Assembly: GCA_016235805.1 (NCBI GenBank)
Contig: JACRIY010000067.1
Span: forward strand, 1 to 64,000
Direction: 5' to 3'
DNA length: 64,000 nt
Source: Rhodocyclales bacterium
GTDB taxonomy: Bacteria; Pseudomonadota; Gammaproteobacteria; Burkholderiales; Rhodocyclaceae
Below are positions 125 to 15,898 of the stretch, one piece after another. A program made the translations under genes and the position numbers. The number at the start of each line of letters is the position of its first letter. Position 1 is the first letter of the stretch. The notes beneath the pieces are model-generated. The model made no database searches. It had not been told where the DNA came from and saw only the letters and a program-made list of their open reading frames with translations.

Positions 125-1333
125 TTAAACGCGCGCCGACAAGAAGCGATCTAATTCCTGCCGATCTAGCAATTTAATGTTGCGCTTGCGCATGGTGACC
201 GTCTCTGGCTTGCGAATCTGTAGCCCCATCGCCGCGTAGTTCGCACGCGCAGTATCATCCAGGGCAACGATATGCAGTAATCGTCCCTCACGCTCGACCG
301 CCTTCTTGGTTTCCTCGAACATGATTGAATCGTGGCGGATCGCTGAGATCTTCACTGCGCGCAACTCTCCGGTCGACCGTTGCCGGAAAACAAAAGGAGC
401 ACCGTTATTGCGGTAGCGATACAGCACCTCCTCGAAATCCTGTAGGCTGTCGGCAGCCAAGGTTGCGATCTCTGCTCCTTCGTCGACGTCGGCGCCGGTG
501 AGCGGTGAGCGCAAGCGTTCGATGACTTTCGCACATTCCTGCGCAGTCCCAGCTTGACGGAAGGCTTCGTTCATTTCTATGAGCGTCGCAATGACGCTTT
601 CGCGGATCCTAGCGGCGTCCTGAGTAGTCTGAATCGCTCCTGTGGTGGTGGTTGACAGCTTTAGCACACGGCTTGCAAAGGCATAGAGAAACTGGAAGTT
701 CGGCGTCCGCAGCTTCAGGATCTCGCTAGGCTGGACTCCTGCCTTGCCCAAGGTTGCCGCAAACCCGAGCAGCACAAAATGCGCTAGCGCCTGCACATAA
801 GCCATATAGCGGTCATGCTCCGCCGCACTTAACCAAGAAACAATCAATCCTCGCGATTCGAGCAGATCGCGCAAGGCACGATGTTTGGGGTGAAGTTCGT
901 CAAATTCCGTCAAGGCCACCAACTGCCCGACGGGTGAGCTTACCGTCGGCCCGAATAAGGGGTGGCATCCGCAAAATGAAACATCTTCTTTCACGCTCCT
1001 GGCCAGCAAGCTGGTTGGCTCCTCCTGAATCGATGACAACGTAGCTACAAGACTGCCGGGTTTAATGAGGGGTAGCAGGTCTGCGACCGTCCCCTCAAGC
1101 GCCGGCAGGGGCACAACCAGGAGGACAATATCGCCCGGCTCGAAGTTGGCCGTGTGGTCTGCCAACCCTTGTTCATGGCTCAGCGGGCACCCTGTCACTC
1201 CGGCAGCCAAAGACTCCAGAGCCTTAACGTTGGTGTCGTAGCAATACACCTTGTCAGCGACAGCAAATACCCGATCAACTAGCCAGCGTCCAATCCCGCC
1301 GCCGCCGCCTACTACATGAATTCGTTCCGGCAT
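125..1333 (-). CDS. Prephenate dehydrogenase (TyrA)-like protein, transposon cargo
   Basis: A 402-residue protein with an N-terminal NAD(P)-binding Rossmann fold (VVGGGGGIGRWL, residues about 6-17) and the TyrA signature CHPLFGP near residue 122, followed by the helical TyrA-like domain. TyrA enzymes oxidatively decarboxylate prephenate to 4-hydroxyphenylpyruvate in tyrosine synthesis. The protein carries roughly 100 residues beyond the usual TyrA core, of unknown role. It starts 215 bases downstream of the caspase-like gene on the same strand; a GAAGG ribosome site precedes the ATG. A housekeeping-type enzyme in a defence-rich transposon is unexpected. It may belong to a biosynthetic cluster left of the window, or be recruited for NAD(P)-linked chemistry. 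Family assignment is solid; substrate is inferred. Confidence 0.75.
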   Translation of the reverse strand: MPERIHVVGGGGGIGRWLVDRVFAVADKVYCYDTNVKALESLAAGVTGCPLSHEQGLADHTANFEPGDIVLLVVPLPALEGTVADLLPLIKPGSLVATLSSIQEEPTSLLARSVKEDVSFCGCHPLFGPTVSSPVGQLVALTEFDELHPKHRALRDLLESRGLIVSWLSAAEHDRYMAYVQALAHFVLLGFAATLGKAGVQPSEILKLRTPNFQFLYAFASRVLKLSTTTTGAIQTTQDAARIRESVIATLIEMNEAFRQAGTAQECAKVIERLRSPLTGADVDEGAEIATLAADSLQDFEEVLYRYRNNGAPFVFRQRSTGELRAVKISAIRHDSIMFEETKKAVEREGRLLHIVALDDTARANYAAMGLQIRKPETVTMRKRNIKLLDRQELDRFLSARV

Positions 1334-1548
1334 GATCCGTGCCCTTCTCCCAGATAAACCACCATTATGATAGTGGTTTTAGAGCGACCACCCTCCTCAG
1401 AAATGGTTCCGCAACATGGCCAGCGCGATCCCGAGGTTACGGCGCCGCCCTGGCCTGTTTATAAATTGACCGACGACATGACTATCGTTATGGCTAGTGA
1501 GGGCATACCATCAGCCAACGAAGTTGCTATGCAAGTCAAGCCACCCTA
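1334..1548. other. Intergenic region with a small inverted repeat
   Basis: This 215-base gap separates the caspase-like gene from the TyrA-like gene, both on the - strand. It contains an imperfect dyad, AAACCAC then GTGGTTT, near 1355-1380, about 25 bases upstream of the TyrA start. The dyad lacks a U-tract in either direction, so it may be an operator or attenuator rather than a terminator. A 61-codon open frame on the + strand (1367-1552) has no ribosome site or recognisable product and I do not call it a gene. Confidence 0.3.
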
Positions 1549-2247
1549 CTAGGGGTGAACTGAAAAAGGAAAGTGATTGAGTCGGCGGCCCATTTCTGCT
1601 TCAGGTGTCTGTTGGGGGGCCTTCCTTCTTAAAGTACTCGCCGCCGAATCAAAGGCATTGCGCAACGATAGGGCGTCCGGACCAGCCCAATTTTTTCCGG
1701 CCTGAATTAGCGCTTGTGTAAAATATCCGCCGGCTTTTGACTCTTGGGCGGCTTGATTGAAGGAACATCCATAGGCTCTGCAAATGCCCATCTCTGCTCG
1801 CTCCAACGCCGCGTCAAAAAGAAATCTAAACTGTACGTCGTCACCGGCGGCCTTTTTCATCACCGCCAATGCTTCAGCAAAAGCGACCTCATAAATTCCC
1901 CGGCACGAGTCCAAAATAACTGTGGCACGAGGTGAATTGGGCGTCAGTTCAATTTCCGATAGGTTTCCGCCCTGAAGACAAACCATCGTTTCTCGTGTTT
2001 GCGCGGAAACGTATCCGTGGCCAGAAAACGTGACGAAGCCATAGCCGCTAGTCATCCTCGCAATCGCTGACTTAACCTGGACTGAACTTGGATTGCGCAA
2101 CATTGAAATTTCGCTCGTACGCCAGAGTCCTCCTCGATTTGAGAGCAGAAACTCATTCCAATTGTCCGCATCTCGGCGCGCGCCAGGAAGCGGCTCCTGG
2201 CCAACAATCTCGGAGCACTCAATAATCAATGCATGGCGTTCAATCAT
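1549..2247 (-). CDS. Caspase-like (peptidase C14) protein, putative immune effector
   Basis: A 232-residue protein with the caspase/metacaspase dyad: the His motif FVTFSGHGYV around residues 72-81 and the Cys motif VILDSCRG around residues 109-116, each after a predicted hydrophobic beta strand. The N-terminal stretch ALIIECSEIVGQ plus GARRDADNW is typical of the first caspase strand and helix. In bacteria such small proteases act as effectors of abortive-infection systems, including TIR-caspase systems described as type IV Thoeris. The start overlaps the end of the membrane protein gene by 8 bases, which implies translational coupling. The TIR gene lies next upstream. I infer activation by a TIR-made nucleotide, or direct association with the membrane partner; neither is shown by sequence. 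Confidence 0.8.
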   Translation of the reverse strand: MIERHALIIECSEIVGQEPLPGARRDADNWNEFLLSNRGGLWRTSEISMLRNPSSVQVKSAIARMTSGYGFVTFSGHGYVSAQTRETMVCLQGGNLSEIELTPNSPRATVILDSCRGIYEVAFAEALAVMKKAAGDDVQFRFLFDAALERAEMGICRAYGCSFNQAAQESKAGGYFTQALIQAGKNWAGPDALSLRNAFDSAASTLRRKAPQQTPEAEMGRRLNHFPFSVHP

Positions 2248-3079
2248 CTGAGAATCCTTTACGCTTCTTAGAGGGCGGCCCCTGCATAGCCGTCACACTA
2301 CTTTCAACTTTTGCGATAAGACTTGGGACTAGGCGCTCGCTCGCACCAGCGACGATGGAAAGTGATAATAGGACCGCCAAATTACTTCCGAAGAATTTCA
2401 CGCCTGCAAGCAGAATCCCTCCCTTGTAGGCGAGTGCGACGAGCAGGGCGCCAGCAATTCCAACAACTATCCGTGCAATACCCTCTGTTACGTGAATCGT
2501 CTTCCCCGCGTTTGCGTCAAGGCTCAACTTGTTACCACGCGATATCACGGAAATCATCGCTCCGACCGACCCAATCAGACCACCAAGGACGACTTCAAGA
2601 CCTGTTCGCCCAAGATATGGCGTTATGAAGTCGCGGGAAAGCCAAACCACGCCCCATAATGCGAGGCAAGCCAATGTAAGCCCATATGCGGCGTCAAAAT
2701 ACCAACTCCAGGACGTCTTAACGTTCAACTCTCCAATTTGCGCATCAGCTAGGTCGTGAATCTGATCGGCCATCTTGACCGAAGAGTATTCGAGATATCT
2801 AGCAATACCTTCTGCGATCAAGCGCTTTATTGATTGGAGGACTTCACGTTCATTAATAAATCGTGCCTTAGCTTCCAAGTATGCTACACGATTTAGTACC
2901 AACCCGAAATCTTGATCCGTTTTAAGCTCATCAGAGTGGCTCCATTGGATATCCAAATTCGAATCAAGATAGACGATAAATTGTTCCGTCTGAAGCACTA
3001 GGAACTTGACTGTTTTTCCAAGCGATGGATCGACGTCTCCCTCACTGAGTTCCTTCATATTCGCTGACACGTTTTGCAT
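2240..3079 (-). CDS. Four-helix membrane protein, putative partner or target of the caspase-like protease
   Basis: A 279-residue protein I do not recognise as a named family. About 115 N-terminal residues are soluble and rich in charged helices. Four hydrophobic segments follow at roughly 123-148, 160-180, 203-225 and 230-250, and a basic tail (PSKKRKGF) ends the protein. It lies between a TIR gene (36 bases upstream) and a caspase-like gene (8-base overlap downstream), so all three are almost certainly co-transcribed. By analogy with other bacterial immune operons it could be a membrane-disrupting effector released by the protease, or an anchor that holds the protease at the membrane. The function is inference. 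Confidence 0.7.
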   Translation of the reverse strand: MQNVSANMKELSEGDVDPSLGKTVKFLVLQTEQFIVYLDSNLDIQWSHSDELKTDQDFGLVLNRVAYLEAKARFINEREVLQSIKRLIAEGIARYLEYSSVKMADQIHDLADAQIGELNVKTSWSWYFDAAYGLTLACLALWGVVWLSRDFITPYLGRTGLEVVLGGLIGSVGAMISVISRGNKLSLDANAGKTIHVTEGIARIVVGIAGALLVALAYKGGILLAGVKFFGSNLAVLLSLSIVAGASERLVPSLIAKVESSVTAMQGPPSKKRKGFSDD

Positions 3080-3115
3080 GGGCGGTGATCCTGTCTGTGT
3101 GCGGCAAACTCGCGC

Positions 3116-4162
3116 TTAAGAGAGCGAATTCAACCGTTGGAGGATAAACCTTGAAACGTCATCTATGCCGAAGACTCTCGCGTCGACAAAGCCATCAATG
3201 GATAGAACACCATCTATTGGAGTATCGTCGAAGCGAACGATCATGACTCTGTCGTCCGCTTTGCTTTTAATAATGTCCCGAATTGCACGCCACTCTAAAC
3301 CGCACCATTCCGCTTTGCCGTATTCGGCACAGAGGAATGCCACAATCAACTGGCTTCTATTCCGATAGATGTCTTGGAGCAGGGCATCAAGATTGGGGCG
3401 AGCCAATTGCGCCTGATAGTCATAGTCATAGAAAATCGCATCTGGGCCGAGGGCTTTCCGAAGAGCGTCAACGACTTTCGAAACGTAAGCTCTCTTCTCG
3501 CCAGGAAACGATATTGCAATCTTGAAATTGACTTCGCCGAGGCTCTGCGTGGAGCGATCAACCTTCCCAACAGCCCGATCTTCAGCAAGGCGTTCTAGAG
3601 TAAGCATGGAGAGAACGAAGGGATCCGGCTCAATCTTCTGGGCTTGTTCTCTCCCTGGATTTGTCAGAGACAAGTGATATAGCAGGAAGTTGATCCAAAT
3701 CGCGAGCGGATTGCTATTCGTGACGGCAGTCGGCTTTACTGAGGGATAAGCAGCTCTCTCGTACTGAAGTATTTCGTCCACCACGCGAAGATTGATCGTT
3801 CCAACTTCATCTTGGTCGAACAAGCTTCCAGCACGTTGAGCCATCCGGACAAATAGGCCACTTTTCTCCCCTTCGATTAGAGCAAAACATGACAGCTCTG
3901 CTCCTTTGAGTCCCCACTTGAGTTCGCTTTCCTTGAGATTGTTCATCAATGTGGCTGCATCATTTTCTGGACCAATACGGCCATAGTATTGCCACAGCAT
4001 GATGGTGTGGTTGGGTGAGATGAATTTCCGATCGATATTTGCCCCGTTCTGAGTCAGAAAATACGTGCTTAAGCTAATGTCGTGAAATTTAGAAGCCTCG
4101 TCTTCGAACGCATTGAGCAGGCGCTGAATTTCAACGGACTGGTTCTTCAGCGACATGCACAA
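3116..4162 (-). CDS. TIR-domain protein with a novel N-terminal region
   Basis: A 348-residue protein. Residues about 1-205 match nothing I recognise; they contain aromatic-rich stretches and could be a sensor. Residues about 210-345 form a TIR domain: it begins FKIAISFPGEKR, has a BB-loop-like stretch, and contains the WCGLEW motif whose Glu is the usual catalytic residue of NAD-consuming TIRs. TIR domains cleave NAD or make cyclic ADP-ribose-type signals. Two ATGs (4162 and 4156) are possible starts; neither has a strong ribosome site. It sits directly before the membrane and caspase-like genes, so it is the likely signal generator of that module. Confidence 0.8.
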   Translation of the reverse strand: MCMSLKNQSVEIQRLLNAFEDEASKFHDISLSTYFLTQNGANIDRKFISPNHTIMLWQYYGRIGPENDAATLMNNLKESELKWGLKGAELSCFALIEGEKSGLFVRMAQRAGSLFDQDEVGTINLRVVDEILQYERAAYPSVKPTAVTNSNPLAIWINFLLYHLSLTNPGREQAQKIEPDPFVLSMLTLERLAEDRAVGKVDRSTQSLGEVNFKIAISFPGEKRAYVSKVVDALRKALGPDAIFYDYDYQAQLARPNLDALLQDIYRNRSQLIVAFLCAEYGKAEWCGLEWRAIRDIIKSKADDRVMIVRFDDTPIDGVLSIDGFVDARVFGIDDVSRFILQRLNSLS

Positions 4163-4236
4163 TTCTCGTTGGATAGGGTGTAATTGCTAAATGTTGTGGA
4201 GTAGCAGTGTTATCGAGATGATTGACGGAATGCAGT

Positions 4237-5100
4237 TTAGACCGCCACATGATCGATGCCGTAGCGATTAGCGATGATATCGACATGATCGCTCTCAACA
4301 TGAGACATGGCAATGCAGCAATACTTGAACTTCTTCCCGCTTCCGCAATAGCATTGCTCGTTACGTCTCAACTTTCGATAATCCGGATTGGGACGAAATC
4401 TCTTTGAAAACTTCAGGTGGCCAAAATCCAAAATTCGGCATTGCCGGTTGGCAATAAGAGACGAGAGGTGGCGCACCAATTGAAACTGTTTTCCATCGTC
4501 CTCGTAGGAGACTACACATCGCTTGTCTCTCGGGTGAGCTACCATGGCTACATGGTCGAGCTGAACAAAGTTCCGGACAATAGCGTTTGCCATTGCGCCT
4601 CGATAGAGCTGCCCTTGAATATGTGGGCACTCCTGAGAGTCGATATTTTTTCCACAAAGGCTGCACTCAAAATATTCAACCGTCGCGCCGATAGAAAAGA
4701 ATACGTTGTAAGGATAGGCTCTCTCCAGTTCAATGACCTGGTCTTCGAAGAAGCTGATATCTAAGCGAGAAAACCGTTTAACTAGACGCAAGAGATCAAG
4801 CGCATCTTGGAGAGAACACCATGAATCGGAAAAGTGTTGATTGACGATCGACTCCCACGTCAGCCCATATTTCGAAATGAAATCGAGGTATCGATCAACG
4901 ACCCATAGATTATTGAGGTAATCGTCGCTAGCACTAGCGGATTTGTCCCTGACCAACTCAATCTGACTTTTTAGACCGCAAAGAACTTCCTGACCATCCG
5001 GAAAACATTGATCGTTGAATGCAGCGAGGGCGCAACGAATTGACGGCCTCAACTTGCCAAAGAGATCTAACGCTTCCTGCGTGCAAAGAGCATCACTCAT
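4237..5100 (-). CDS. SEC-C motif protein, unknown function
   Basis: A 287-residue protein ending in a SEC-C zinc motif (RRNEQCYCGSGKKFKYCC, about 20 residues before the C-terminus). A second cysteine group, FECSLCGKN with C-PH following, lies near residue 155. SEC-C motifs bind zinc and are found on SecA and on many uncharacterised proteins of mobile islands. I chose the ATG at 5100; a TTG one codon upstream is also possible. The start overlaps the end of the preceding gene by 8 bases, so the two are translationally coupled. The TIR gene follows after 74 bases on the same strand, which suggests one transcript, but membership in the TIR-caspase system is unproven. Confidence 0.65.
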   Translation of the reverse strand: MSDALCTQEALDLFGKLRPSIRCALAAFNDQCFPDGQEVLCGLKSQIELVRDKSASASDDYLNNLWVVDRYLDFISKYGLTWESIVNQHFSDSWCSLQDALDLLRLVKRFSRLDISFFEDQVIELERAYPYNVFFSIGATVEYFECSLCGKNIDSQECPHIQGQLYRGAMANAIVRNFVQLDHVAMVAHPRDKRCVVSYEDDGKQFQLVRHLSSLIANRQCRILDFGHLKFSKRFRPNPDYRKLRRNEQCYCGSGKKFKYCCIAMSHVESDHVDIIANRYGIDHVAV

Positions 5101-5602
5101 CAAGGAACCTGTTCAGGTCGAATCGCTTGATTGCTTTCTGAAGGGCGTCAACATCGCCATCAAAGCTAAAGCGTTTGACCTTCCCGTTTGCTTTGTCTTC
5201 AAATTCAGCGCAAAGGTGAACGCGGGCTATTTCACCTCTCAGTGCCCCTTTCATTTTTTCATAGAGGTAATTTGAGACGAGGTTGAGGTAAATAGGGAGC
5301 GCAACGTCACTAGCCAGAAAGGCGAGGGGTAGCCAAATATCACTTGAACGTAGAACAAGCCTTGGCAACTTTTCATCCATCACGACATTGAGCTCGGGCT
5401 CTTGAGTTCTCAGCCATTTGGCGAAAACTCCGGCATCCGACTTCAGAACGACATTTTTGGGTTCTCCGTATTCTTCGGCGCGCATTTCGATCCCTGAGGG
5501 GCGATTCGCAGCAAAGGCGCGGAAATCACTGTCGTCTTCAACTTCGGTAAGGTGACAGGAGTCCAGTGGCTCTATGCAGGACAAGATACTCCCCTTCGGC
5601 AA
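5093..5602 (-). CDS. Unknown cargo protein coupled to the SEC-C gene
   Basis: A 169-residue protein I do not recognise. It is acidic at the N-terminus. A hydrophobic stretch near residues 90-110 (WLPLAFLASDVALPIYLNL) is followed by a basic stretch and a strand-rich end. The first possible start is a TTG at 5602 without a clear ribosome site; internal starts downstream cannot be excluded, so the N-terminus is uncertain. Its stop overlaps the SEC-C gene start. It is the first gene of the leftward cargo run, divergent from thsB1. The pairing with a SEC-C protein may be a two-gene module of its own. Confidence 0.55.
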   Translation of the reverse strand: MPKGSILSCIEPLDSCHLTEVEDDSDFRAFAANRPSGIEMRAEEYGEPKNVVLKSDAGVFAKWLRTQEPELNVVMDEKLPRLVLRSSDIWLPLAFLASDVALPIYLNLVSNYLYEKMKGALRGEIARVHLCAEFEDKANGKVKRFSFDGDVDALQKAIKRFDLNRFLDE

Positions 5603-5861
5603 CCCAACTTACAAGCACAAAGCCCGTAACAGGTTCGCGAGATTCTTGCGATTAACGTATTCGCTGCGGCGTTCCAGTTTCTGATTGTCAACGGCATTGG
5701 CGAGTTACCATTATGTCCGTAGCCTACATATTGCGTCATAGTTTGCTAGAGATAGTTATTTTTTGCGGTAGCCCGCTATTTGCCGTTATTGCGTATGGCA
5801 TTTTTGTGCTAAATTTTGCTCAAATAACGCAGAGAGATATCTGACGCAAGAAGAATAGAAA
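5603..5861. other. A+T-rich divergent intergenic region between the two cargo operons
   Basis: This 259-base gap separates the leftward unknown/SEC-C/TIR/caspase run from the rightward Thoeris genes, so promoters for both should lie here. The right half is rich in A+T runs. I see no reading frame worth calling and no strong palindrome. A possible promoter for thsB1 is listed separately. Confidence 0.5.
5789..5815 (+). promoter_or_regulatory. Possible extended -10 promoter for the Thoeris genes
   Basis: TGC-TAAATT at 5807-5815 resembles an extended -10 element, with TTGCGT at 5789-5794 as a weak -35 at 15-base spacing. It lies about 47 bases before the thsB1 ATG. This is a visual match only. 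Confidence 0.3.
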
Positions 5862-6461
5862 ATGAAGCGCTGCAAATCAAATACAAAATCGGGCCGCCGC
5901 TGCCTAAATCACGCTCTGGTTGGTAGCGACTTTTGTGGTGTTCATCGATTTGATGTTTTCCCTGGTGCTGCACTGGCAATCGGTGCAGGTGCCTTGGTAG
6001 GTAATATTGTTGCTCCTGGCATAGGGGGTGTTGTTCTCGGTGGAATAGCTGGCGGAATAGCTCGAACTCTATTTGAAGGGGATGAAATGGCAAAGACGCG
6101 AGTATTTGTGAGCTTCGACTTCGACAATGATCGTGTCCTAAAGGATTTCATCCTGGGGCAGGCAAAATTGACTGACTCTCCATTCGATGTCATCGACCAC
6201 TCCTTGAATGAGGCGGCACCTGAACGCGATTGGGAAAGGAAGGCTAGGGCAGCGATCAGTTATGCAGAAATAGTCCTGGTAATGGTTGGCTCGATGACAC
6301 ATAAGGCTCAAGGGGTACTCAAGGAAGTCGAAATGGCTCGTGAGATGGGGGTAAAAATTGTACAGATCATCGGATACAAGGATGGTGCTTACACCCCCGT
6401 TCCAAATGCCGGACGGTTGTATTCGTGGAACTGGGATAACCTCAAGAACTTGTTGAGCTAG
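5862..6461 (+). CDS. thsB1: ThsB-like TIR protein with N-terminal zinc-finger and glycine-zipper membrane segment
   Basis: A 199-residue protein in three parts. Residues 4-28 form a C-X9-C-X10-C-X2-H zinc-finger-like motif (CKSNTKSGRRC ... FCGVH). Residues about 33-70 are a glycine-rich hydrophobic stretch that could insert in a membrane. Residues 76-199 form a ThsB-type (DUF1863/TIR-like) domain starting MAKTRVFVSFDF, with the VLVMVGS strand near residue 145. ThsB proteins sense phage infection and use NAD to make an ADP-ribose signal for ThsA. An in-frame ATG at 6087 with a GAAGGG ribosome site 6 bases upstream would give just the TIR-like part. thsA starts 24 bases downstream. The extra N-terminal part is unlike the simple ThsB at 7984. 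Confidence 0.8.
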   Translation: MKRCKSNTKSGRRCLNHALVGSDFCGVHRFDVFPGAALAIGAGALVGNIVAPGIGGVVLGGIAGGIARTLFEGDEMAKTRVFVSFDFDNDRVLKDFILGQAKLTDSPFDVIDHSLNEAAPERDWERKARAAISYAEIVLVMVGSMTHKAQGVLKEVEMAREMGVKIVQIIGYKDGAYTPVPNAGRLYSWNWDNLKNLLS

Positions 6462-6485
6462 GGAATTCTGTATAGAGAGATATCT

Positions 6486-7934
6486 TTGACAAAAGCTACC
6501 ACCCCATTTAGTCCTGACATACGTGCGTTCATCAATTCGTTCGCTAGCGATATAGCTGATGGTACAGCTGCTATCTTTGCCGGTGCAGGTCTATCAGTCG
6601 CCAGCGGCTACGTCAATTGGGCGGAGTTATTGCGGGATATAGCAGAAGAGCTGGGACTAGATGTTGACCGTGAGACGAACTTAGTTGCTGTTGCCCAATA
6701 CCACCTAAACGAGCGGCGCAACAGGACACGCATAAATCAGAAAATCATTGATGAGTTCAGTGTAGGGCACGTGCTTAACGAGAACCACAAGGTCCTTGCG
6801 CGTCTTCCCATCGCAACGTACTGGACTACTAACTATGATCTGATGATCGAGAAAGCGCTAGAAGCAGCAGGTAAAGTTGTCGATGTCAAACATACTGTCG
6901 AGCACCTGAAGAAAACCCAACGTGGTCGGCACGCGGTGGTTTACAAGATGCACGGTGACGTGAGCGATCCCGATAAGGCTGTACTCACCAAGGATGATTA
7001 CGAAGGGTATTTTCGCGACCGGGAACCCTTCGTTACCGCGCTGGCTGGCGATCTTGTAGCAAAGACGTTTCTTTTCGTAGGGTTTAGCTTTACCGACCCG
7101 AACATTGACTACGTCATGAGTCGGATTCGGGTGGTTTTGCGAAGCCAGCCAAAACAGCACTATTGCATCTTGCGGCGGGAAGCGCGCAGATCAAGAGAAA
7201 AGCTTGCCAATTTTGAGTATCGCCGCCGCCAGCAAGATTATTTTGTCAAGGACCTTGCTCGAATAGGCATTCACGCGCTGATGGTCGATGATTACGCAGA
7301 CGTTACTCGCGTCCTGCGAGCCGTTGAGATGCACTATCGTACCCATACAGTATTTATCTCAGGTAGTGCGCATGAGTTTGGGCCTTGGCGACCCGACGAC
7401 GCAGGCCGCTTCCTGGAGTTGTTAAGTGCTGATCTGATCGCGAATGGATTCAATGTTGTTACTGGATTTGGCCTTGGAGTGGGGCCATCAGTAATTGCAG
7501 GCGCCCTACAGCGAATTTTGGCGCATCCAAAGCGCCATTCGCAGAATCAGCTCCAAGCATTTCCGTTTCCGGTTGATGATGGATCTGCGCCTACTAGGCG
7601 GGCTATGTACCGACGACATCGCGAGGCCATGATCAGTAACGCGGGTATTGCAATATTCGTGTTCGGAAACAAGCGGGATGGTCGGGGGAAAATTATTTTG
7701 GCCGACGGGATGCGGTACGAACTCGAAATTGCACGCTCCATGGGACTGCAGATCATTGCGATAGGTTCGACGGGATGGATAGCCCAAGAAATCGCAGCAG
7801 ACCTTAGAAGTTCGCTTTCGGGACGGACCAAAGCATTTCTGAAAGCCTTTACGGTAGCCAATGATCCAAATGCTCCCATCGAATCAATCGTCAGGGCGAC
7901 GCTGACAATGGTGTGCGAATACAGAGACGATTGA
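6486..7934 (+). CDS. thsA: Thoeris effector ThsA (SIR2 + SLOG NADase)
   Basis: A 482-residue protein. Residues about 15-285 form a SIR2-type NADase domain: FAGAGLS (31-37), TTNYD (114-118, with Asn116) and YKMHGDV with the catalytic His156. Residues about 292-470 form a SLOG domain (VFISGSAHEFG, then VVTGFGLGVG, and a YELEIARSMGLQIIAIGS end) that binds the cyclic ADP-ribose signal made by ThsB. On activation ThsA depletes cellular NAD and blocks phage spread. Both domains are full length and the key residues are present. The start is a TTG at 6486 preceded by AGAGAGATA. It is flanked by two ThsB genes on the same strand, which makes a complete type I Thoeris locus. Confidence 0.93.
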   Translation: MTKATTPFSPDIRAFINSFASDIADGTAAIFAGAGLSVASGYVNWAELLRDIAEELGLDVDRETNLVAVAQYHLNERRNRTRINQKIIDEFSVGHVLNENHKVLARLPIATYWTTNYDLMIEKALEAAGKVVDVKHTVEHLKKTQRGRHAVVYKMHGDVSDPDKAVLTKDDYEGYFRDREPFVTALAGDLVAKTFLFVGFSFTDPNIDYVMSRIRVVLRSQPKQHYCILRREARRSREKLANFEYRRRQQDYFVKDLARIGIHALMVDDYADVTRVLRAVEMHYRTHTVFISGSAHEFGPWRPDDAGRFLELLSADLIANGFNVVTGFGLGVGPSVIAGALQRILAHPKRHSQNQLQAFPFPVDDGSAPTRRAMYRRHREAMISNAGIAIFVFGNKRDGRGKIILADGMRYELEIARSMGLQIIAIGSTGWIAQEIAADLRSSLSGRTKAFLKAFTVANDPNAPIESIVRATLTMVCEYRDD

Positions 7935-7983
7935 ACAACAACGATCAATTGCTTGGGTTAAGTTGTAGCGTTAGGGAGGGGAT

Positions 7984-8553
7984 ATGGCGAAGCGCTGTTT
8001 TTTTAGTTTCCACTATCAGGACGTGATTGATTTTCGCGCCAATGTTGTCCGAAACCATAACGTTACGAAAAATGACAATGGTGGATTCTTCGATGCATCT
8101 ATCTGGGAAAGTGCCAAGAAGAATGGTGATATCGCCCTTAAGCGATTGATAAACAGTGGGCTGGACAATACCTCAGTTACAGTGGTACTTGTCGGTTCTC
8201 AGACGTACGCACGACGTTGGGTGCAGTACGAAATCATGAAGAGCATTGAGCGCGGTCATTCAGTACTTGGCATTCACATCAACGGCATTCGCGATAAGCA
8301 AGGGATAGTCAAAGCTCAGGGGCCGAATCCGTTCGACTATTTGGGACTGCAAATTAGTGCTGATGGCTGCACTGGGACGCCAATTATCTGGAGCGGAGCC
8401 CAGTGGGTGCAATACCAAGACATCGGCAAATTTTCAATTAATGAACAATCGTACGAGAAATGTAACAAGAATTGGCAATTGAAAACTTGGCTTCCTACCT
8501 ATGACTGGATTACCGATGATGGCTTCAATAATTTTGGCGATTGGGTAGCTTGA
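7984..8553 (+). CDS. thsB2: Thoeris TIR sensor ThsB (canonical form)
   Basis: A 189-residue protein that begins MAKRCFFSFHYQDV, the hallmark start of the ThsB TIR-like family (DUF1863). It keeps the GSQTYARRWVQYEI motif (residues 71-84), with Glu83 at the expected catalytic position, and the GPNPFDYLG and WITDDG motifs later on. ThsB recognises phage infection and makes an ADP-ribose cyclic signal that activates ThsA. The ribosome site GGGAGGGG lies 3 bases before the ATG. It follows thsA after 49 bases. Having two different ThsB proteins beside one ThsA is common and widens the range of phages sensed; here the two copies differ strongly in architecture. Confidence 0.92.
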   Translation: MAKRCFFSFHYQDVIDFRANVVRNHNVTKNDNGGFFDASIWESAKKNGDIALKRLINSGLDNTSVTVVLVGSQTYARRWVQYEIMKSIERGHSVLGIHINGIRDKQGIVKAQGPNPFDYLGLQISADGCTGTPIIWSGAQWVQYQDIGKFSINEQSYEKCNKNWQLKTWLPTYDWITDDGFNNFGDWVA

Positions 8554-8905: not shown

Positions 8906-10468
8906 CTAAGTGTCAACGCTCTGTATGTGATACAAGGCTCCCGATACGGACAAGCTGTCAGTCGACAATCGCCCTGGGAAAAGCTTCGCGGACTCGCCTG
9001 CAACCCCCAGAAGGAGTTCATCAATGGGCGCCTCAACAACCATCCACTGACCCTTGACCTGCAGTTTCGTTCCATCTGGAGATCGACGTAGACTCGTTTG
9101 GTCCAGAGACAGTACGTGTTCTAGCGAAACTCCAAAAAGTACTGAAATTAGCTTGGCAACATAGGCGCGACGCGCACCTAATGGCTCCGCCGTTCGCGCT
9201 GCGACAGTAAGGCGCCTTACCTCGTCCACAACCGATTTAATCGATGGGGCATGTTTTTGCTTACTCGGGGGAATAGTCAATTGGCGGTCGTACTTTTCCT
9301 TGATGTAGGACACAAGTGAAAAGAGTGATGCGCGATGGCCCGGCTTCGAGCGAAGGAAGCTTCGAATATGATCGTCGGCCAAATCTCCGACTCTGCGCAC
9401 TTCCGAATGGGCTAATAGCTCGACCGCCGTACGAAGATACATACGCTGGGAACGGGCACTAAGTTTTCTATTTGGGGTATTCAGATCGCTGGCATAGCTC
9501 TGGATAAAATCGCTCCACGGTCTGTTTTTCACCTCGCCAAGCACATTGCTAACTCTACGAAGTTCTGATGCCGCTGCCCGCTCGGTAGCCGACCGAACCA
9601 AAAGTTTCTTCTCCGTGAGAAACTGTGCGAACACCCCTGATCGTCGAACCTGTTCGGTAGTTAACGCACGTTCGAAAGTATCAGCCGTCAAAACGCCAGA
9701 ATAGTCGTCCGTACTCTCTATTCTTCCGAGGATTTCGACAACTCTCGACAGAGTGTCAAGTGCGTTTCGAACAGATTGCCGTTCGATCACCCATTCCGTG
9801 TACTCGTCGAGTAGTTGACGAATTTCTGCGGCTTGAAGCATCCTACCCAAAGCGTCTGCTTTCCTCCGAATTGCCCGAATCATCCCGCAAGGCAGACATG
9901 GGGCATTGGTGGATCCACCGACGGTGCCTCCGCAGTCAGGACACGAGTGAGTGGCATCTGGATTTGCCGCACAACTTTTGCAGAGCGGCTTGCCGTCAGG
10001 AGTCACCGCAAAACGATTTCGATGCTTTCCACAGACACTACAAGTCGCCCCAGTCAGCGCTCTGCGGCATTTGTCGCAAACTCCTTCAACAGTCAGTCCA
10101 ACAACCCTTGACAACGTTGTTGATAGTTTCCCACACCTCGGACACGGAACCGCTTCTCTAAAATACGGAGAGCAGCTCGGGCAAACTGGTTTCCCCTCGA
10201 AGATTAAGCCCGCAGTTGGTACAGGTCTTTCGCAGCGAAGGCAAACTCGCGCTTTCCGGCGGCACGACGCACAAATCGGCGAAGGATCTTGTGCCAAAGC
10301 ACGAACCCGACCGCCACACTTCACACATTCACGCGACTTGAACAAGCGCTGGTAGCAGCGCTGACAGAGCGCTGTACCAGAATGAATTTTGTGGGCCTTC
10401 GCCATCTCACGACCGCATTCGTCACAGCGCCGTTCCTTGGGGGTGCAAGCTTCCTGTTCCAAGTCCAT
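8906..10468 (-). CDS. tnsF: TnsF target selector: zinc-ribbon array with inactivated tyrosine recombinase
   Basis: A 520-residue protein. Residues about 14-205 hold twelve CxxC knuckles, giving about six zinc ribbons. Residues about 315-400 resemble the SAM-like core-binding domain of phage integrases (RMYLRTAVELLAH ... HIRSFLRSK). The rest looks like a decayed catalytic domain: the stretch FGVSLEHVLSL stands where active recombinases have TGLRxSEL, so the first catalytic Arg is lost, and no HxxR or Tyr motif is visible. TnsF of Tn6022-like elements has this architecture and directs insertion into comM, and comM is broken next to this element. The gene starts 7 bases after tniQ and is the last gene of the transposition operon. 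Confidence 0.85.
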   Translation of the reverse strand: MDLEQEACTPKERRCDECGREMAKAHKIHSGTALCQRCYQRLFKSRECVKCGGRVRALAQDPSPICASCRRKARVCLRCERPVPTAGLIFEGKPVCPSCSPYFREAVPCPRCGKLSTTLSRVVGLTVEGVCDKCRRALTGATCSVCGKHRNRFAVTPDGKPLCKSCAANPDATHSCPDCGGTVGGSTNAPCLPCGMIRAIRRKADALGRMLQAAEIRQLLDEYTEWVIERQSVRNALDTLSRVVEILGRIESTDDYSGVLTADTFERALTTEQVRRSGVFAQFLTEKKLLVRSATERAAASELRRVSNVLGEVKNRPWSDFIQSYASDLNTPNRKLSARSQRMYLRTAVELLAHSEVRRVGDLADDHIRSFLRSKPGHRASLFSLVSYIKEKYDRQLTIPPSKQKHAPSIKSVVDEVRRLTVAARTAEPLGARRAYVAKLISVLFGVSLEHVLSLDQTSLRRSPDGTKLQVKGQWMVVEAPIDELLLGVAGESAKLFPGRLSTDSLSVSGALYHIQSVDT

Positions 10469-10475
10469 GTACGAC

Positions 10476-11573
10476 CTATCTGGTTAAGCCCGACCGACCC
10501 AAGAGTAGTTTCGCCCTTGCCTGTCGATACGATGCGACGTTTCTGTGCGCTTTTCGAAGGCTAGCCCAAGTGATTCTTACCCTTTTGTGTTTGAAGTTCA
10601 CCGGTCCCAATGAGTAGGGAATCTGCGTCATCGCCGTCGTGATCCAGTCTGGCCACGGGCCATACTCATCCGTAAGGTAGTGTTGCGACAAACCTCGATT
10701 GGTTGCCCATGAAATCCATGAGTTTGGCCATCCATCAATCCAGGACGCTACCCTGTCCAATACTATCGCGCGGTCTTTGGTTCGCAGGAATGCCCATACG
10801 ACCCTGTTGTGGATGATCGGCTTTGGCAAGGCATCAGTTGCACGCGCAGCGAGTCTGCACAGACGATGGACTCCATCCAGGAAGTCCTGCGCCTCAATTT
10901 CAAGACCCGGCATCGCGCCAATTCGTGTTGGAGGAAGCTGATCGACACTCTCCTGCGCTCCGCGAATGGCACCGTCCAAGATCGCCAAAATGCGACTTTG
11001 CAAATCTTCAGTCAATTTTGACGGTCTATCTTGATCCCCGCCTCTTAGCAATGCACCACACGAATGACACTTCGCGGTAGTCAATGCGTGTTTGCGATGA
11101 GGGATAAATGGCGCATCGCATTCAGGACAAGAATCTCGCAGCAATATCCCGTGTTTTGGACATGCAACCATGAACTCCAGCCGCCATTGGACTCGGAGAT
11201 AGGCAGGCTTTTCATCTAGGCACATCCAGCAGTACTGCTGCCCGAACCTACGCCGAACCCTGTGATAAATACCTACGGGCAAAATTCCTCTCTGATACCC
11301 TGGTATTCGCTCCTTGAACCCAGTCGCCCTGACCATATTCCTCAGTGTCGCTTTAACCAAGACTTCCTTAGTTAGCCCGGTGATACGTGCAATCGCTTCG
11401 AGTTGGGCGTCGGATACCGTCCTATCGATGTCGCGTGTCCAAAACTGATGCTGCGGCCAGAGCAAAGTACAAAGCTCGTGGCCAGATGCGCTGTGATTTT
11501 TTGCGAGGCGTAGCAGGAGCGATGTAAGCGACTCTCCGGGTTTGACTTTTGGAACATGCGCGATATGTTTCAT
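10476..11573 (-). CDS. tniQ: TniQ/TnsD-family transposition protein
   Basis: A 365-residue protein with the TniQ fold: an N-terminal GESLTSLLLRLAKNH motif and a zinc-binding core (YCWMCL ... ACPKHG ... SCPECD ... KCHSCG, residues about 115-185). TniQ proteins link the target selector to the AAA+ regulator TnsC. Here the partner selector is most likely TnsF, encoded 7 bases downstream. At 365 residues it is shorter than Tn7 TnsD, which binds the attachment site by itself, and more like the short adaptor form. Its start overlaps the tnsC stop as ATGA. Family assignment is firm. Confidence 0.9.
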   Translation of the reverse strand: MKHIAHVPKVKPGESLTSLLLRLAKNHSASGHELCTLLWPQHQFWTRDIDRTVSDAQLEAIARITGLTKEVLVKATLRNMVRATGFKERIPGYQRGILPVGIYHRVRRRFGQQYCWMCLDEKPAYLRVQWRLEFMVACPKHGILLRDSCPECDAPFIPHRKHALTTAKCHSCGALLRGGDQDRPSKLTEDLQSRILAILDGAIRGAQESVDQLPPTRIGAMPGLEIEAQDFLDGVHRLCRLAARATDALPKPIIHNRVVWAFLRTKDRAIVLDRVASWIDGWPNSWISWATNRGLSQHYLTDEYGPWPDWITTAMTQIPYSLGPVNFKHKRVRITWASLRKAHRNVASYRQARAKLLLGRSGLTR

Positions 11574-12448
11574 TCGGACATCTCCCGCGCTCTAATTTCC
11601 TTAACTGTTTCATCCACAATGTCCTTGGTGATCTTCTCCTGCCCTGAGCGAATCGCCCTGATGGCAGAACCTTTCACAACTTTGGTGATTCCACCGATCG
11701 TGCCCTTCCCGCCACGTACGATAGGATCAAGAAGTTCTTTGCTATTCCCAAGGCCCGACGGGTTTGCCAAAGGAAGTGTTAATTCGAAGCTAGAGAGCAA
11801 ACTCCTCGTCTCATCGTTCGCTCCCCACCTTGGAAGCGACATCTTCTCAAAGCGGGTAAAGAACTGCGAATCTGTCGCCAACGCACGCAGAATGTCATTT
11901 GTTCCTGCAGCAACAAATGGAACTCTTAGCGTGTTTATCAAGCTTTTAAGGGAAGCCAAGAACTGGCGCTGACCTGATGCAGAGCCGTTCAGCATATTGT
12001 GAAACTCATCTGCCAATAGCAGACGAATCCCCAATTCGGCGAACCGTTCCAATACTTTTGCTAGCAGCTTCTCGGGCGGAGCATCCTCACGATGTGTCAC
12101 ACACAAGGCACTCAAGATTCGGCTATATAGTCTTCGTTCATCGGGAGCGGGAGGGGTTTCAAAAACCAAGACAGCCACGTGCGATTCCTCGTCGTCGCGT
12201 TCTCGCCGTGGATGTAGCTTGATACACCGTCTTAGGATCATTGTCTTACCATTGTCGGGATCACCAACGAGGGCACGACAAGGCATTCGTAGATTGCGCG
12301 GATGGTCTATTAAGTCGTCAAATTCTCGTAGCGTATTTTTGGCAGCTGAGTAGCCTATCCACCGATCTTCTAATATGAAATCGATGCGATCTTCCTGAGT
12401 TAGCAGGACAACGTTTTTGGCAGCTCCTCGAAGATGATCAAACGTCAT
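11570..12448 (-). CDS. tnsC: TnsC-like AAA+ ATPase
   Basis: A 292-residue TniB/TnsC-type ATPase. Walker A is GDPDNGKT (residues about 61-68) and Walker B is LLLADEFHN (about 138-146), followed by a sensor-1-like VAAGTND. TnsC forms ATP-dependent filaments on target DNA, receives the signal from TniQ/TnsF and activates the TnsAB transposase. It is much shorter than Tn7 TnsC (555 residues) and nearer to TniB in size. The start overlaps the tnsB stop by 4 bases, as expected for a coupled operon. Confidence 0.9.
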   Translation of the reverse strand: MTFDHLRGAAKNVVLLTQEDRIDFILEDRWIGYSAAKNTLREFDDLIDHPRNLRMPCRALVGDPDNGKTMILRRCIKLHPRRERDDEESHVAVLVFETPPAPDERRLYSRILSALCVTHREDAPPEKLLAKVLERFAELGIRLLLADEFHNMLNGSASGQRQFLASLKSLINTLRVPFVAAGTNDILRALATDSQFFTRFEKMSLPRWGANDETRSLLSSFELTLPLANPSGLGNSKELLDPIVRGGKGTIGGITKVVKGSAIRAIRSGQEKITKDIVDETVKEIRAREMSE

Positions 12449-14448
12449 ATATCGATATCCTCAAAGGGAGCTGCCGGTTTGTTGAAGATGTTGTCCGCAT
12501 CACCACCCTGAGCATCGCCTTCGGCTTTGGGATTTTTCGAACTTGCGGCCGAGGTGGCCGCGTAGCGTTCAGCTCCCGGGGCAGTGTTCTTCGGGTCCTT
12601 GTGTGCGTCCTTTGGAGCTGATCGCTTGCCACGCCCCTTTGCTTGTTGCGTCTTTTCCACCTCAGTTTGCGTTCGAAGCTTGCTACGCTGTACATAGCCC
12701 TTAATCGCCGCCTCGTCGACATGGGAGGCGCCTTCCTGCTTCATAGTACGAACATACTCGCGGTACTCTTCCCACGAGATATCAGGCCAATTGGGGTCTC
12801 GCAGAGGGATTTCGAAGTGCCGTTTAACCTCAGGGTCCCAGAACCATATAAGCCGAATGCTTCGGGGGTCATAGTGAAAGATAAACTTGCGCTTCTTACC
12901 TGAATCATCAGGATCCGGTTCGCCGATCCAACGATTGAGCACTTCGTGGTAATAAAACCGGTCAATTTCTACGCCGTACGGGTGAACCGCCCTTTTTTCA
13001 AACGGAAGAAAATCGAGGCGGAGTTTTTCAGGATTGGCCGGTATTGGCGGCAGTCCGATACCTGCGGCTTTGGAGTCCCCCAGCAACCCGCGCTCCCATT
13101 TCTTCAAGGGGGTTGTATTGAGGGATGAATGAACGGAGACGTGATAGCGATTCACTATCCAATCGACGATTTCACATTCCAGAGTTGCGAGGGTGTATGC
13201 CGCTTCGGCGGATGAGTCGTAATCCGGGCTTACATTTGGACTACGATGGACCGTCCCGGGCTTTTTGTGAAGTTGCTTATTGACGTTGCCTACCATCGAC
13301 TCAATGTAGGCACCGTACTTTGGCGTTTTGACCGGCCGCAGCTGAAGGTCGATCTGGTGTTCTTCGCAAGCCCTCTGCAGAACAGACCCCTTGAATTCCT
13401 TGGCGTTGTCCGCGAAGATTTTTCGAATCTTGCCAAACACTGGCCAGCGACCTGGCAGGCCGAGTTCCGCCAATAGATCACGCTTCGGCATCATTCCCAT
13501 ATAGAGGGCAACACCCGCCCCGAATGCTGAAGGATGCATTAGGCTAAGAAAGTAGCCGACGATCATTCGCGAGTAGCAATCGATAACTAAAGTTAGCCAT
13601 GGCCGTTTCTCGATTGTTTGCCGTGTGTCGCTATCGACAACCTTGATATCGAGTTGAACATGATCGATTTGTACGCAATCAAGCGGGTGTTTTCCATCCG
13701 GAAACTTTCCCGGTGCAGGATCGAAACGCTGCTGTGATAGCTCTGTATTTCCTCGGCTCGATATCCTTCGCTTCAACGGGATATCCGCAATGCGATTCCG
13801 TATCGTGTTTGGGTGAGGCCGAGGAAGACCTAATTCGTCAAACCGTGTTTCCAGGTCATCGATAAGGGTTGCAGGAGTGATTGCCTGGGGATCAAGGTAC
13901 TTTTCTATTTCCTCTTCAATGACCGCTTCCTGCTCTGGCGAAAGCAGTTTCGTCCCCTTCTTGCGGCCCCGCTTTGCACTTACCAAGCCTGAAACATGAC
14001 CGGTACTGGAGTAGCTGCTTATCCATTTGTAGATTGTGCTTGCGTTAACGGAGTTTGCTTTGGCAACGGCTTCTACATCTGCCCTAGTTCGTTTTGGGTT
14101 TTCAAGCAGAGGCTTAATAATTTCCAAATTCGCCTTGGCTTGCTTCCAATCTGGATCAGAGATTTCATCTAGATTCGTTTGGTTTGAAGCGGACGTCGTT
14201 TTGGCAGCAGCTTTTCCTTCGTCGCTGGCTTCGGATGAACTCCCTTTATCGGTCGGAGCCTCCACAACCGGTCGTAGTTCGGTTGGATGGACACGCTCCG
14301 TTTCGTCACCGTCAACGTATTGGATAACAACGCAATCAAGTGAAATAACGCGGCGGATTTTGCACGTTCTGCCTCCATACGAAGCATATGCACCCTGGGC
14401 GAGATTAATAAACCCGCCGGGTGTCAGCGTCGATCTAACGACGCTCAT
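12445..14448 (-). CDS. tnsB: TnsB-like DDE transposase
   Basis: A 667-residue transposase with an N-terminal helix-turn-helix region (SVNASTIYKWISSY near residue 135) and an RNase-H-like rve core. The catalytic triad is visible as the Asp of DCVQIDHV, the Asp of IFADNAKEF and the Glu of YGAYIESMVG. A Mu-C-like beta barrel follows, then a charged Lys/Ala-rich tail that probably contacts TnsC. TnsB binds the transposon ends, cuts the 3' strands and joins them to the target. The start overlaps tnsA by 14 bases. Confidence 0.93.
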   Translation of the reverse strand: MSVVRSTLTPGGFINLAQGAYASYGGRTCKIRRVISLDCVVIQYVDGDETERVHPTELRPVVEAPTDKGSSSEASDEGKAAAKTTSASNQTNLDEISDPDWKQAKANLEIIKPLLENPKRTRADVEAVAKANSVNASTIYKWISSYSSTGHVSGLVSAKRGRKKGTKLLSPEQEAVIEEEIEKYLDPQAITPATLIDDLETRFDELGLPRPHPNTIRNRIADIPLKRRISSRGNTELSQQRFDPAPGKFPDGKHPLDCVQIDHVQLDIKVVDSDTRQTIEKRPWLTLVIDCYSRMIVGYFLSLMHPSAFGAGVALYMGMMPKRDLLAELGLPGRWPVFGKIRKIFADNAKEFKGSVLQRACEEHQIDLQLRPVKTPKYGAYIESMVGNVNKQLHKKPGTVHRSPNVSPDYDSSAEAAYTLATLECEIVDWIVNRYHVSVHSSLNTTPLKKWERGLLGDSKAAGIGLPPIPANPEKLRLDFLPFEKRAVHPYGVEIDRFYYHEVLNRWIGEPDPDDSGKKRKFIFHYDPRSIRLIWFWDPEVKRHFEIPLRDPNWPDISWEEYREYVRTMKQEGASHVDEAAIKGYVQRSKLRTQTEVEKTQQAKGRGKRSAPKDAHKDPKNTAPGAERYAATSAASSKNPKAEGDAQGGDADNIFNKPAAPFEDIDI

Positions 14449-15127
14449 GCCACATACTCCAAATCGGAGACGCCATCGTAATTGTGCGTGATAGGTCGAT
14501 CTTGATTCGGCCGTCCGCCACGAGCTTCCACAAAATGCCGACTGCTTCCAGACGCCGATCGAGGCTTGAGAAGCTTGCCGCTAACAGTTCAGCTGGGGTA
14601 CTGACCTTGAGCTCGTTCATAACCCGATAAAGAATCTGCCCGATGCAGTCGTGATCCTTACGATCAAGAAACCCCCTCAGGAACTGAATACGTTCGAATC
14701 GCGGGTTCCGGATAGTTCTTTCGGTCGCGATGCGGAATCGCCAGCCTCTTTCTCTACAAAGTAGCGCCGCTCGTTGAAACCCAGGCCGCAGGTCAGTCCA
14801 CTGATCCCGGAGGTGCGAACGCAGCTTTACTTCATACAGCGCTGGCGATAACGCGGGCCTGGCTTCCTTTGGTTTGAACTTCAGCAGGAAATCTGGCGTA
14901 TATCGACGCCTCTTGTCGTCGTTGAATACCAATCGAAGCGGCTGCGCTCCTACATAGCTCGCACTTCTGGAAAAGTCTATTTGCTCAAGGAAATCACGTT
15001 CCAACTGGCCCTCGTAAGGCACAAGCCCCACCCCTGCTATGCTGGTGTAACCAGTTATAACTAGGCGGTTGGAGATCACATTGCGTACGCCCTTACGGCT
15101 AGTCGCGTCTTTTACTGTAAAATCCAT
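14435..15127 (-). CDS. tnsA: TnsA-like endonuclease
   Basis: A 230-residue protein of the TnsA family. The restriction-enzyme-like core shows the expected acidic and Lys residues: YEGQLERDF (residues about 38-46), RYTPDFLL (about 75-82) and LYEVKLRSHL (about 96-105). TnsA cuts the 5' strands at the transposon ends, so with TnsB it gives cut-and-paste movement. A winged-helix-like C-terminal part follows. It is the first gene of the operon and starts about 80 to 105 bases from the element's right end, so its promoter must overlap the end sequences bound by TnsB, a natural route to autoregulation. Confidence 0.9.
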   Translation of the reverse strand: MDFTVKDATSRKGVRNVISNRLVITGYTSIAGVGLVPYEGQLERDFLEQIDFSRSASYVGAQPLRLVFNDDKRRRYTPDFLLKFKPKEARPALSPALYEVKLRSHLRDQWTDLRPGFQRAALLCRERGWRFRIATERTIRNPRFERIQFLRGFLDRKDHDCIGQILYRVMNELKVSTPAELLAASFSSLDRRLEAVGILWKLVADGRIKIDLSRTITMASPIWSMWHERR

Positions 15128-15233
15128 ACCCAGTCTCCTATATTAATGTATGAGTCCGATAATTAATTGTAGCAATATCGAGCTAGCGTGGGCAAATTAG
15201 ACCCTACAGTCGCTTTATTTGGTGGAAGTCTCA
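15128..15233. promoter_or_regulatory. Transposon right end (TnsB-binding region and tnsA promoter)
   Basis: This short A+T-rich stretch lies between the tnsA start and the G+C-rich comM remnant. Two end points are possible. Reading leftwards from 15208 gives TGTAGGGTC, a Tn7-style TGT end. Reading from 15233 gives TGAGACTTCC and leaves GCGGC (15234-15238) as a target duplication at the comM glycine codons. Partial repeats of an ATTAAT-ATNGGA type at about 15139-15167 could be TnsB sites, but they are not clear enough to list one by one. Confidence 0.55.
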
Positions 15234-15238
15234 GCGGC
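15234..15238. other. Candidate 5-bp target-site duplication in comM
   Basis: GCGGC directly follows the candidate end at 15233 and falls in the Gly-Gly codons of the ComM motif (GG)TPRPGE. The partner copy would be at the left end, outside the window, so the duplication cannot be confirmed here. Confidence 0.4.
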
Positions 15239-15898
15239 GGCACGCCGCGGCCGGGCGAAATTTCGCTGGCCCACCATGGCACGCTGTTCCTCGACGAACT
15301 GCCCGAGTTCCAGCGCGGCGTGCTGGAGGCCCTGCGCGAACCGCTGGAAAGCGGGCAGATCCACATCGCGCGCGCCGCGCGTCGCGCCGAATTCCCGGCA
15401 CGCTTCCAGTTGGTCGCGGCGATGAATCCCTGCCCTTGCGGCTGGCTCGGCCATGCCTCCGGCAAATGCCGCTGCACGCCGGACCAGGTCGCGCGCTATC
15501 GCGGCAAGCTGTCGGGACCGCTGCTCGACCGCATCGACCTGATGCTCGACGTGCCGGCAGTAGCCGAAGCCGACCTCGCCTGCCGCGGCGACGGCGAATC
15601 CTCGGCCACCGTGCGCGCTCGCGTCGGGGCCGCGCGGGAGCGCCAGCAGCGTCGCCAGGGCAAGCCCAACGCGCTGCTGGCGCCCGACGAAATCGACATG
15701 CACTGCCTGCCCGACTGCGACGGCGCCGCCCTGCTCAAGCGCGCCATGCAACAACTCGGCTTGACCGCGCGGGCTTATCATCGCATCCTCAAGGTGGCGC
15801 GCACGATTGCGGACCTGGCCGACCTCGCCGAGGGCCTGCCGCTGTCCGCCGCGCACGTCGCCGAAGCGGTGCATTACCGCCGCGGCCTGGCCAACTGA
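15234..15898 (+). pseudogene. comM: comM, 3' half, cut by the transposon
   Basis: The translation from the junction reads [25 protein letters not shown], the Walker-B region of ComM (YifB, a Mg-chelatase-like AAA+ helicase needed in natural transformation), and continues to the normal C-terminus about 220 residues later (HYRRGLAN). The N-terminal Lon-protease-like domain and Walker A are missing because the transposon separates them. A GTG at 15188 inside the element could start a fused product, but it would lack ATP binding. The remnant is otherwise free of stops and frameshifts, which suggests a recent insertion. Loss of ComM would be expected to lower transformation with divergent DNA. The next gene starts 13 bases downstream. 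Confidence 0.92.

Follow-up and report, generated by a model that had tools for sequence, protein, structure and literature searches.

A TIR gene beside a membrane-caspase gene pair in a Tn7-like element of a Rhodocyclales bacterium

Introduction

Do neighboring genes for a TIR protein, a multi-helix membrane protein, and a caspase-family protease form one defense system, or do separate modules lie side by side? The question is raised by positions 1549–4162 of the Rhodocyclales bacterium contig JACRIY010000067.1. All coordinates below refer to the 64,000-nucleotide stretch that was analyzed (the window), and genes on its minus strand are transcribed in the order of descending coordinates. A first-pass annotation had treated the three genes as a single unit, in which a nucleotide made by the TIR protein would activate the protease, which would in turn release or open the membrane protein. 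We prefer, with a probability of roughly 0.6, a reading in which two modules stand side by side in a transposon-borne defense island, namely, a membrane-caspase pair and a separate TIR. This preference is based on the occurrence of the pair without a TIR in Sideroxydans and of the whole TIR without the pair in Bradyrhizobium. All three genes are carried as cargo by a Tn7-like transposon that interrupts comM. In the order of transcription, they are:

3116–4156, minus strand: TIR protein (Pfam TIR_2), 346 residues from ATG; the open reading frame (ORF) opens with TTG at 4162, giving 348 residues
2240–3079, minus strand: membrane protein, 279 residues, with a soluble N-terminal part and about four C-terminal hydrophobic helices
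1549–2247, minus strand: caspase-family (C14) cysteine protease, 232 residues, a bare catalytic domain with His77 and Cys115 (Pfam PF00656)

The three co-directional ORFs and their spacing, a gap of 36 bases between the TIR and membrane genes and an overlap of 8 bases between the membrane and caspase genes, are as the first-pass annotation had them. PADLOC gave no match for any of the three proteins at an expectation value (E) of 0.1 or below.

The membrane-caspase pair occurs without a TIR

The caspase matches Pfam Peptidase_C14 (PF00656) over residues 4–217 of 232 with E 8.5e-13. His77 and Cys115 are invariant in all three aligned sequences, that of the window counted, in agreement with the intact His/Cys dyad noted in the first pass. 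For the caspases, the nearest NCBIfam model (“caspase, EACC1-associated type”) gave E-values of 1.4e-6, 5.3e-5, and 8.4e-5, all below its cut-off.

The membrane protein had been described as a four-helix protein, and hydropathy gives about four hydrophobic stretches, situated in the C-terminal half from residue 130 on. A low-confidence structural model contains four long C-terminal helices, with a mean predicted local distance difference test score (pLDDT) of 47 obtained from a two-row alignment. A fold search of the PDB with this model returned no match at E ≤ 0.001; alpha-pore toxins ranked high in it but, at that threshold and that pLDDT, were given no weight. No Pfam family matched the membrane protein at E ≤ 1, the EACC1 family PF19953 included. 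The protein is likewise unmatched in PADLOC and in NCBIfam, where the single row returned was chance-like and far below the cut-off.

Genome contigs were scanned for the membrane protein by a motif-seeded search with this single protein, which detects close relatives only. One relative was confirmed, at 63–66% identity, in a metagenome-assembled genome (MAG) of Sideroxydans. There, too, the membrane gene is followed by a caspase gene, whose product is 64–65% identical to the window caspase; membrane and protease genes are adjacent in both of the two genomes with close relatives, the window's being one. This second genome backs the membrane-caspase association within the unit proposed in the first pass. 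The overlap of 8 bases is not shared by Sideroxydans, in which 55 bases lie between the two genes, taking ATG 6836 as the caspase start. For both genes, most differences between the window and Sideroxydans fall on the third position of codons (0.63–0.64, vs 0.16–0.32 at positions 1 and 2), as would be expected of two maintained proteins.

The Sideroxydans pair is flanked by sigma-54 regulator and BrnT genes on one side and by NiFe-hydrogenase genes on the other, and the locus contains no relative of the TIR, SEC-C, or 169-residue proteins encoded in the window. A search of the rest of the MAG, whose completeness is unstated, also gave no TIR match, although this search had no positive control of its own. 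Because neither the locus nor the rest of the MAG yielded a TIR match, the pair can stand without a TIR, and a strict need of the pair for one was rejected.

Within the pair, the membrane protein might do the killing once activated by the caspase, in a gasdermin-like manner, with cleavage releasing or opening a pore; such a division of labor would be compatible with two modules. The adjacency of the two genes in both genomes speaks for it, as does the loop between hydrophobic helices 2 and 3, in which 16 of 21 residues are identical between the window and Sideroxydans proteins. The membrane protein, however, resembles no known pore former, its model is of low confidence and lacks a fold match, as given above, and no relative of the window caspase lies near its distant helix relatives (0/3 loci: L006, L007, and L008). 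We therefore treat this division of roles as tentative and somewhat improbable.

The pair is rare. With the own genome counted, here and in the TIR survey below, relatives of the caspase were found in 1/399 genomes of the order and 1/396 of the phylum, and those of the membrane protein in 4/398 genomes of the phylum, the matches in the other three being partial and lying mostly in the hydrophobic half. Phages gave no caspase match, plasmids gave no membrane-protein match, and no relative of either protein was confirmed on viral contigs.

Two side observations concern more distant relatives. L006, L007, and L008 encode distant relatives of the hydrophobic half that share, close to the last helix, the motif G-(F/A)-(S/A)-E and perhaps mark a wider membrane family. 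Five Leptospira plasmid records contain a caspase relative at 28–30% identity (tblastn of plasmids), and in both of the two records that were fetched, the gene before the caspase encodes a short protein, predicted to be a membrane protein with a single helix and without a match to the window membrane protein, and a DEAD/DEAH-helicase gene follows the caspase (L012, 3487–4681; L013, 3495–4681). This small membrane protein has 151 residues in L012, and its ORF is shorter in L013. We count this arrangement, too, in favor of a membrane-caspase module.

The TIR protein occurs without the pair

The TIR_2 match (E 2.8e-9) covers residues 215–323, leaving the N-terminal 195–200 or so residues without an assigned family. 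The glutamate of the W-x-x-x-E motif (residue 288 counted from the ATG), which we take to be the catalytic one of TIR NADases, is a glutamate in all 19 aligned TIR rows, the window counted and 13 loci that repeat others excluded; the catalytic-type Glu of the first-pass annotation is thereby upheld. ATG 4156 appears a likelier start than TTG 4162, because an ATG stands at the corresponding position of the Bradyrhizobium relative; the annotated start of that relative lies nine codons further in. Predicted as a single sequence, the TIR structure had a pLDDT of 39 and was too poor to use; like the membrane-protein model, it does not bear on the unit proposed in the first pass. Profile and sequence searches against PDB chains gave weak rows only, with plant TIR domains and metacaspases among them.

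The only whole-length relative found, at 42.5–43% identity over 99% of the length, is encoded on a plasmid of a single Bradyrhizobium strain that is represented by two records. Its gene begins 23 bases (from ATG 6001) or 50 bases (from the annotated start) after a gene for a Cap4-SAVED nuclease. This run of genes, of the type of the cyclic oligonucleotide-based antiphage signaling system (CBASS), also holds MPN-domain, ThiF, and SMODS-domain genes; caspase and membrane protein are absent from it. As an observation in its own right, the full-length TIR following the Cap4-SAVED nuclease (L009, 3851–7041) could be an effector added to this CBASS-type run.

Outside the window, matches to the N-terminal extension occur in the Bradyrhizobium loci only. 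In the other relatives, the similarity is essentially confined to the TIR domain; either their N-terminal regions differ or, as labeled by reading the sequence, their C-terminal part is NTPase/TPR-like. Within this TIR family, the same catalytic domain is combined with several distinct N-terminal regions.

Apart from the window's own, 22 TIR-family places were examined, and the flanks covered contain neither a caspase nor a membrane-protein match at any of them. These places comprise 13 plasmid places, among which two pairs and one trio are apparent copies, and nine places in eight genomes; for three of the genome places, only about 1.5 kb on each side was examined, and the region in genome G582 stops about 0.8 kb beyond the match, where the contig ends. 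In these flanks, the searches covered these caspase and membrane families only (tblastn at E ≤ 1e-3; profiles at E ≤ 0.1 on ORFs of at least 60 residues), so that this count would miss a caspase of another family at the genome loci and at the three Rhizobium loci that lack annotation. For the remaining ten plasmid loci, the annotation tables name no caspase. Furthermore, no caspase match was found anywhere in the five genomes with such TIRs that were searched (0/5). This search had no positive control of its own, but its caspase profile does recover the window's own copy in another survey.

TIR relatives were found in 4/399 genomes of the order and 6/398 of the phylum. Phages gave one TIR-domain match, and no relative was confirmed on viral contigs.

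Joint or separate function

The unit of three genes proposed in the first pass did not fare as well as its parts: one close relative has the pair without a TIR, and one relative has the whole TIR without the pair. Rare joint occurrence of homologues had been named beforehand as the outcome that would speak against the unit, and this is largely what was observed, in a small sample. The separate occurrence of TIR and pair makes the three-part model less probable.

The biochemical steps of the two-module reading, and any anti-phage effect of either module, we infer from the sequences. The first module would be a two-gene cassette in which the membrane protein, with its approximately four helices, senses or relays damage at the membrane or another membrane-associated cue and switches on the small caspase-like protease. 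The activated protease would then cut cell proteins, possibly the membrane protein as well, and the infected cell would stop growing. The second module would consist of the TIR protein, whose N-terminal domain may sense an infection cue and whose C-terminal domain may consume nicotinamide adenine dinucleotide (NAD+) or make a signal of the cyclic ADP-ribose type.

The principal alternative is a three-component system resembling type IV Thoeris with an added membrane component: a nucleotide produced by the TIR would activate the caspase, which would cleave or open the membrane protein and so kill the cell. Its genes are tightly spaced on one strand, and the TIR glutamate and the caspase dyad are both intact. 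Signaling from a TIR to a caspase-like protease is, moreover, established for type IV Thoeris (PMC12847820). Against this alternative stand the only close relatives found, which have either the pair or the TIR; the absence of the pair from all 22 TIR-family places; and the caspase itself, a bare catalytic domain on which the Pfam scan made no ligand-binding domain evident. In our judgment, such a three-component system is unlikely. Also unlikely, and not to be pressed, is the more specific proposal of a newly assembled, transposon-borne trio, in which a signal from the extended TIR would reach the bare-domain caspase and lead to proteolytic gating of the four-helix membrane protein.

Several of the same facts weigh against the preferred reading of two modules. 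Only 36 bases separate the TIR gene from the membrane gene, both of them on the minus strand, and that strand shows no terminator-like site in 1300–6000, for which reason the two genes may be co-transcribed; promoter-like and terminator-like sites were not above chance. The precedent of type IV Thoeris counts here as well. The linkage argument rests on one relative of the pair and one relative of the whole TIR (two records of one strain), the former in a MAG of unstated completeness, and neither the TIR search of that MAG nor the caspase search of the five genomes had a positive control of its own. This tiny number of close relatives is the main weakness of the analysis. It should be noted that close gene spacing within a defense island does not prove a joint system.

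Genomic setting

Two further co-directional genes, which the first-pass annotation did not mention, lie directly upstream of the TIR gene:

4237–5103, minus strand: SEC-C motif protein, 288 residues (Pfam SEC-C, E 4.3e-7)
5093–5602, minus strand: 169-residue protein without a family match in Pfam

The order on the minus strand is thus the 169-residue protein (5602–5093), SEC-C (5103–4237), TIR (4156/4162–3116), membrane protein (3079–2240), and caspase (2247–1549). The SEC-C gene is probably part of another module. The two upstream genes overlap by 11 bases and possibly form a further two-gene module (4237–5602). In the fetched loci, the only relatives of SEC-C were copies of the window itself; relatives at 24–32% identity occur in seven plasmid records. 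The 169-residue protein had no match in the plasmid search. Toward the start of the window, positions 125–1333 hold a prephenate-dehydrogenase-like gene with an extra C-terminal part, whose G+C content of 57% is between those of the island and the host; the gene may be either cargo or flank.

On the other side of this run lies a second set of defense genes:

5862–6461, plus strand: ThsB-like TIR protein with an N-terminal hydrophobic segment (PADLOC ThsB; hydropathy)
6486–7934, plus strand: ThsA (PADLOC ThsA, E 1.6e-186)
7984–8553, plus strand: ThsB (PADLOC ThsB)

PADLOC E-values for the two ThsB-like genes are 7e-59 and 4.7e-5, and the genes at 5862–8553, combining a ThsA of the SIR2-STALD type with ThsB TIR proteins, are a type I Thoeris system. 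The ThsB-like protein at 5862–6461 has an N-terminal region with a Cys/His motif and a Gly-rich hydrophobic segment and is possibly a membrane-bound second ThsB. Since the same element carries, about 1.7 kb off, a Thoeris system that includes two ThsB-like genes, the TIR protein of the minus-strand run could in principle be an extra signal maker for its ThsA. We consider this very improbable: the Thoeris genes are on the opposite strand, in a gene run separate from that of the TIR, and the window TIR matches TIR_2 and not ThsB_TIR at E ≤ 1. It also shows no significant similarity to either ThsB-like protein, on which ground its membership in the type I Thoeris was rejected.

The element that carries these genes is delimited on one side by transposition genes and the interrupted comM:

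8906–10468, minus strand: TnsF-like protein, 520 residues (tentative label)
10476–11573, minus strand: TniQ (Pfam TniQ, 1.5e-24)
11570–12448, minus strand: TnsC/TniB (Pfam TniB, 1.1e-65)
12445–14448, minus strand: TnsB/TniA (Pfam Mu-transpos_C, 7.2e-5)
14435–15127, minus strand: TnsA (Pfam TnsA, 1.9e-11)
15190–15208, plus strand: probable transposon end (...GACCCTACA) at the comM junction, its position inferred from the reading frame of comM
15209–15898, plus strand: comM (Mg-chelatase family), 3' part of the gene split by the transposon; Pfam Mg_chelatase, 1.8e-51, with the match starting at profile position 88, and Mg_chelatase_C, 1.1e-28

One transposon end is seen, at about 15208, and the contig begins at window base 1. 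The 5' part of comM was not found in the assembly, which is 80% complete; a search with the N-terminal family gave two places, identified from their sequence as RadA and Lon. Cargo and transposition genes have a G+C content of 45–53%, vs 65% for bases 16001–64000. The 520-residue protein has no family match at E ≤ 0.001. Its weak, sub-cut-off matches to zinc-ribbon and phage-integrase SAM families, the position of its gene, the insertion in comM, and the published description of TnsF suggest that it fits the TnsF of Tn6022-like elements.

Discussion

Tn6022-like Tn7 transposons target comM and carry TnsF, a protein with zinc fingers and an inactive tyrosine-recombinase domain (PMC10293859). 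The element described here resembles them in having TnsA, TnsB, TnsC, and TniQ, in its insertion in comM, as judged from the 3' part of that gene beyond the element, and perhaps in a TnsF-like protein, whose possible zinc ribbons match below the cut-off; the comparison is made with a single end in view. Tn7-like transposons with defense cargo, Thoeris included, have already been described (PMC8649781), and the present locus illustrates the stacking of defense modules by such an element.

In type IV Thoeris, a TIR protein and a caspase-like protease are encoded in one operon, and N7-cyclic ADP-ribose (N7-cADPR) made by the TIR activates the protease (PMC12847820, PMC13373217). The window likewise has TIR and caspase-like protease genes in one co-directional run. 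It differs in the membrane gene placed between them and in the separate occurrence of TIR and protease among the close relatives found, type IV Thoeris being compared here by description only. No description of a trio of TIR, four-helix membrane protein, and caspase was found in the literature searched, which was mainly open-access.

The closest parallel to the pair is the predicted two-gene EACC1-caspase system, in which a membrane gene, encoding an EACC1 domain and a single transmembrane helix, lies 5' of a caspase gene (PMC7159879); a similar two-gene EACC2-caspase arrangement has been described (PMC8195603). As in that system, the membrane gene of the window is 5' and the caspase gene follows directly, as is also the case in Sideroxydans. 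The match of the window caspase to the NCBIfam model caspase_w_EACC1 (NF047832) stays below the cut-off (E 1.4e-6, 28 bits, cut-off 140). Unlike in that system, the membrane partner is a protein of about four helices without a match to EACC1 (PF19953), and the caspase lacks a variable C-terminal effector domain, the Pfam match covering residues 4–217 of 232. Membership in the EACC1 system proper was rejected, as the membrane protein had no EACC1 match at E ≤ 1; screening the own genome for EACC1 also gave no match, but this is uninformative, as there was none in 14 control genomes either. Because the gene order is the same while the partner is not EACC1 and the C-terminal domain is absent, we regard the pair as a variant of the EACC1 plan and not as a member.

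The membrane-caspase pair thus looks like a new, rare two-gene variant. It adds to what is known near the predicted EACC1 plan a membrane-caspase combination whose membrane partner matched no family in the three libraries searched (Pfam, NCBIfam, and PADLOC). If it is true that this partner controls the caspase, the death pathways of membrane-linked caspases or gasdermins would have a bacterial counterpart in the pair.

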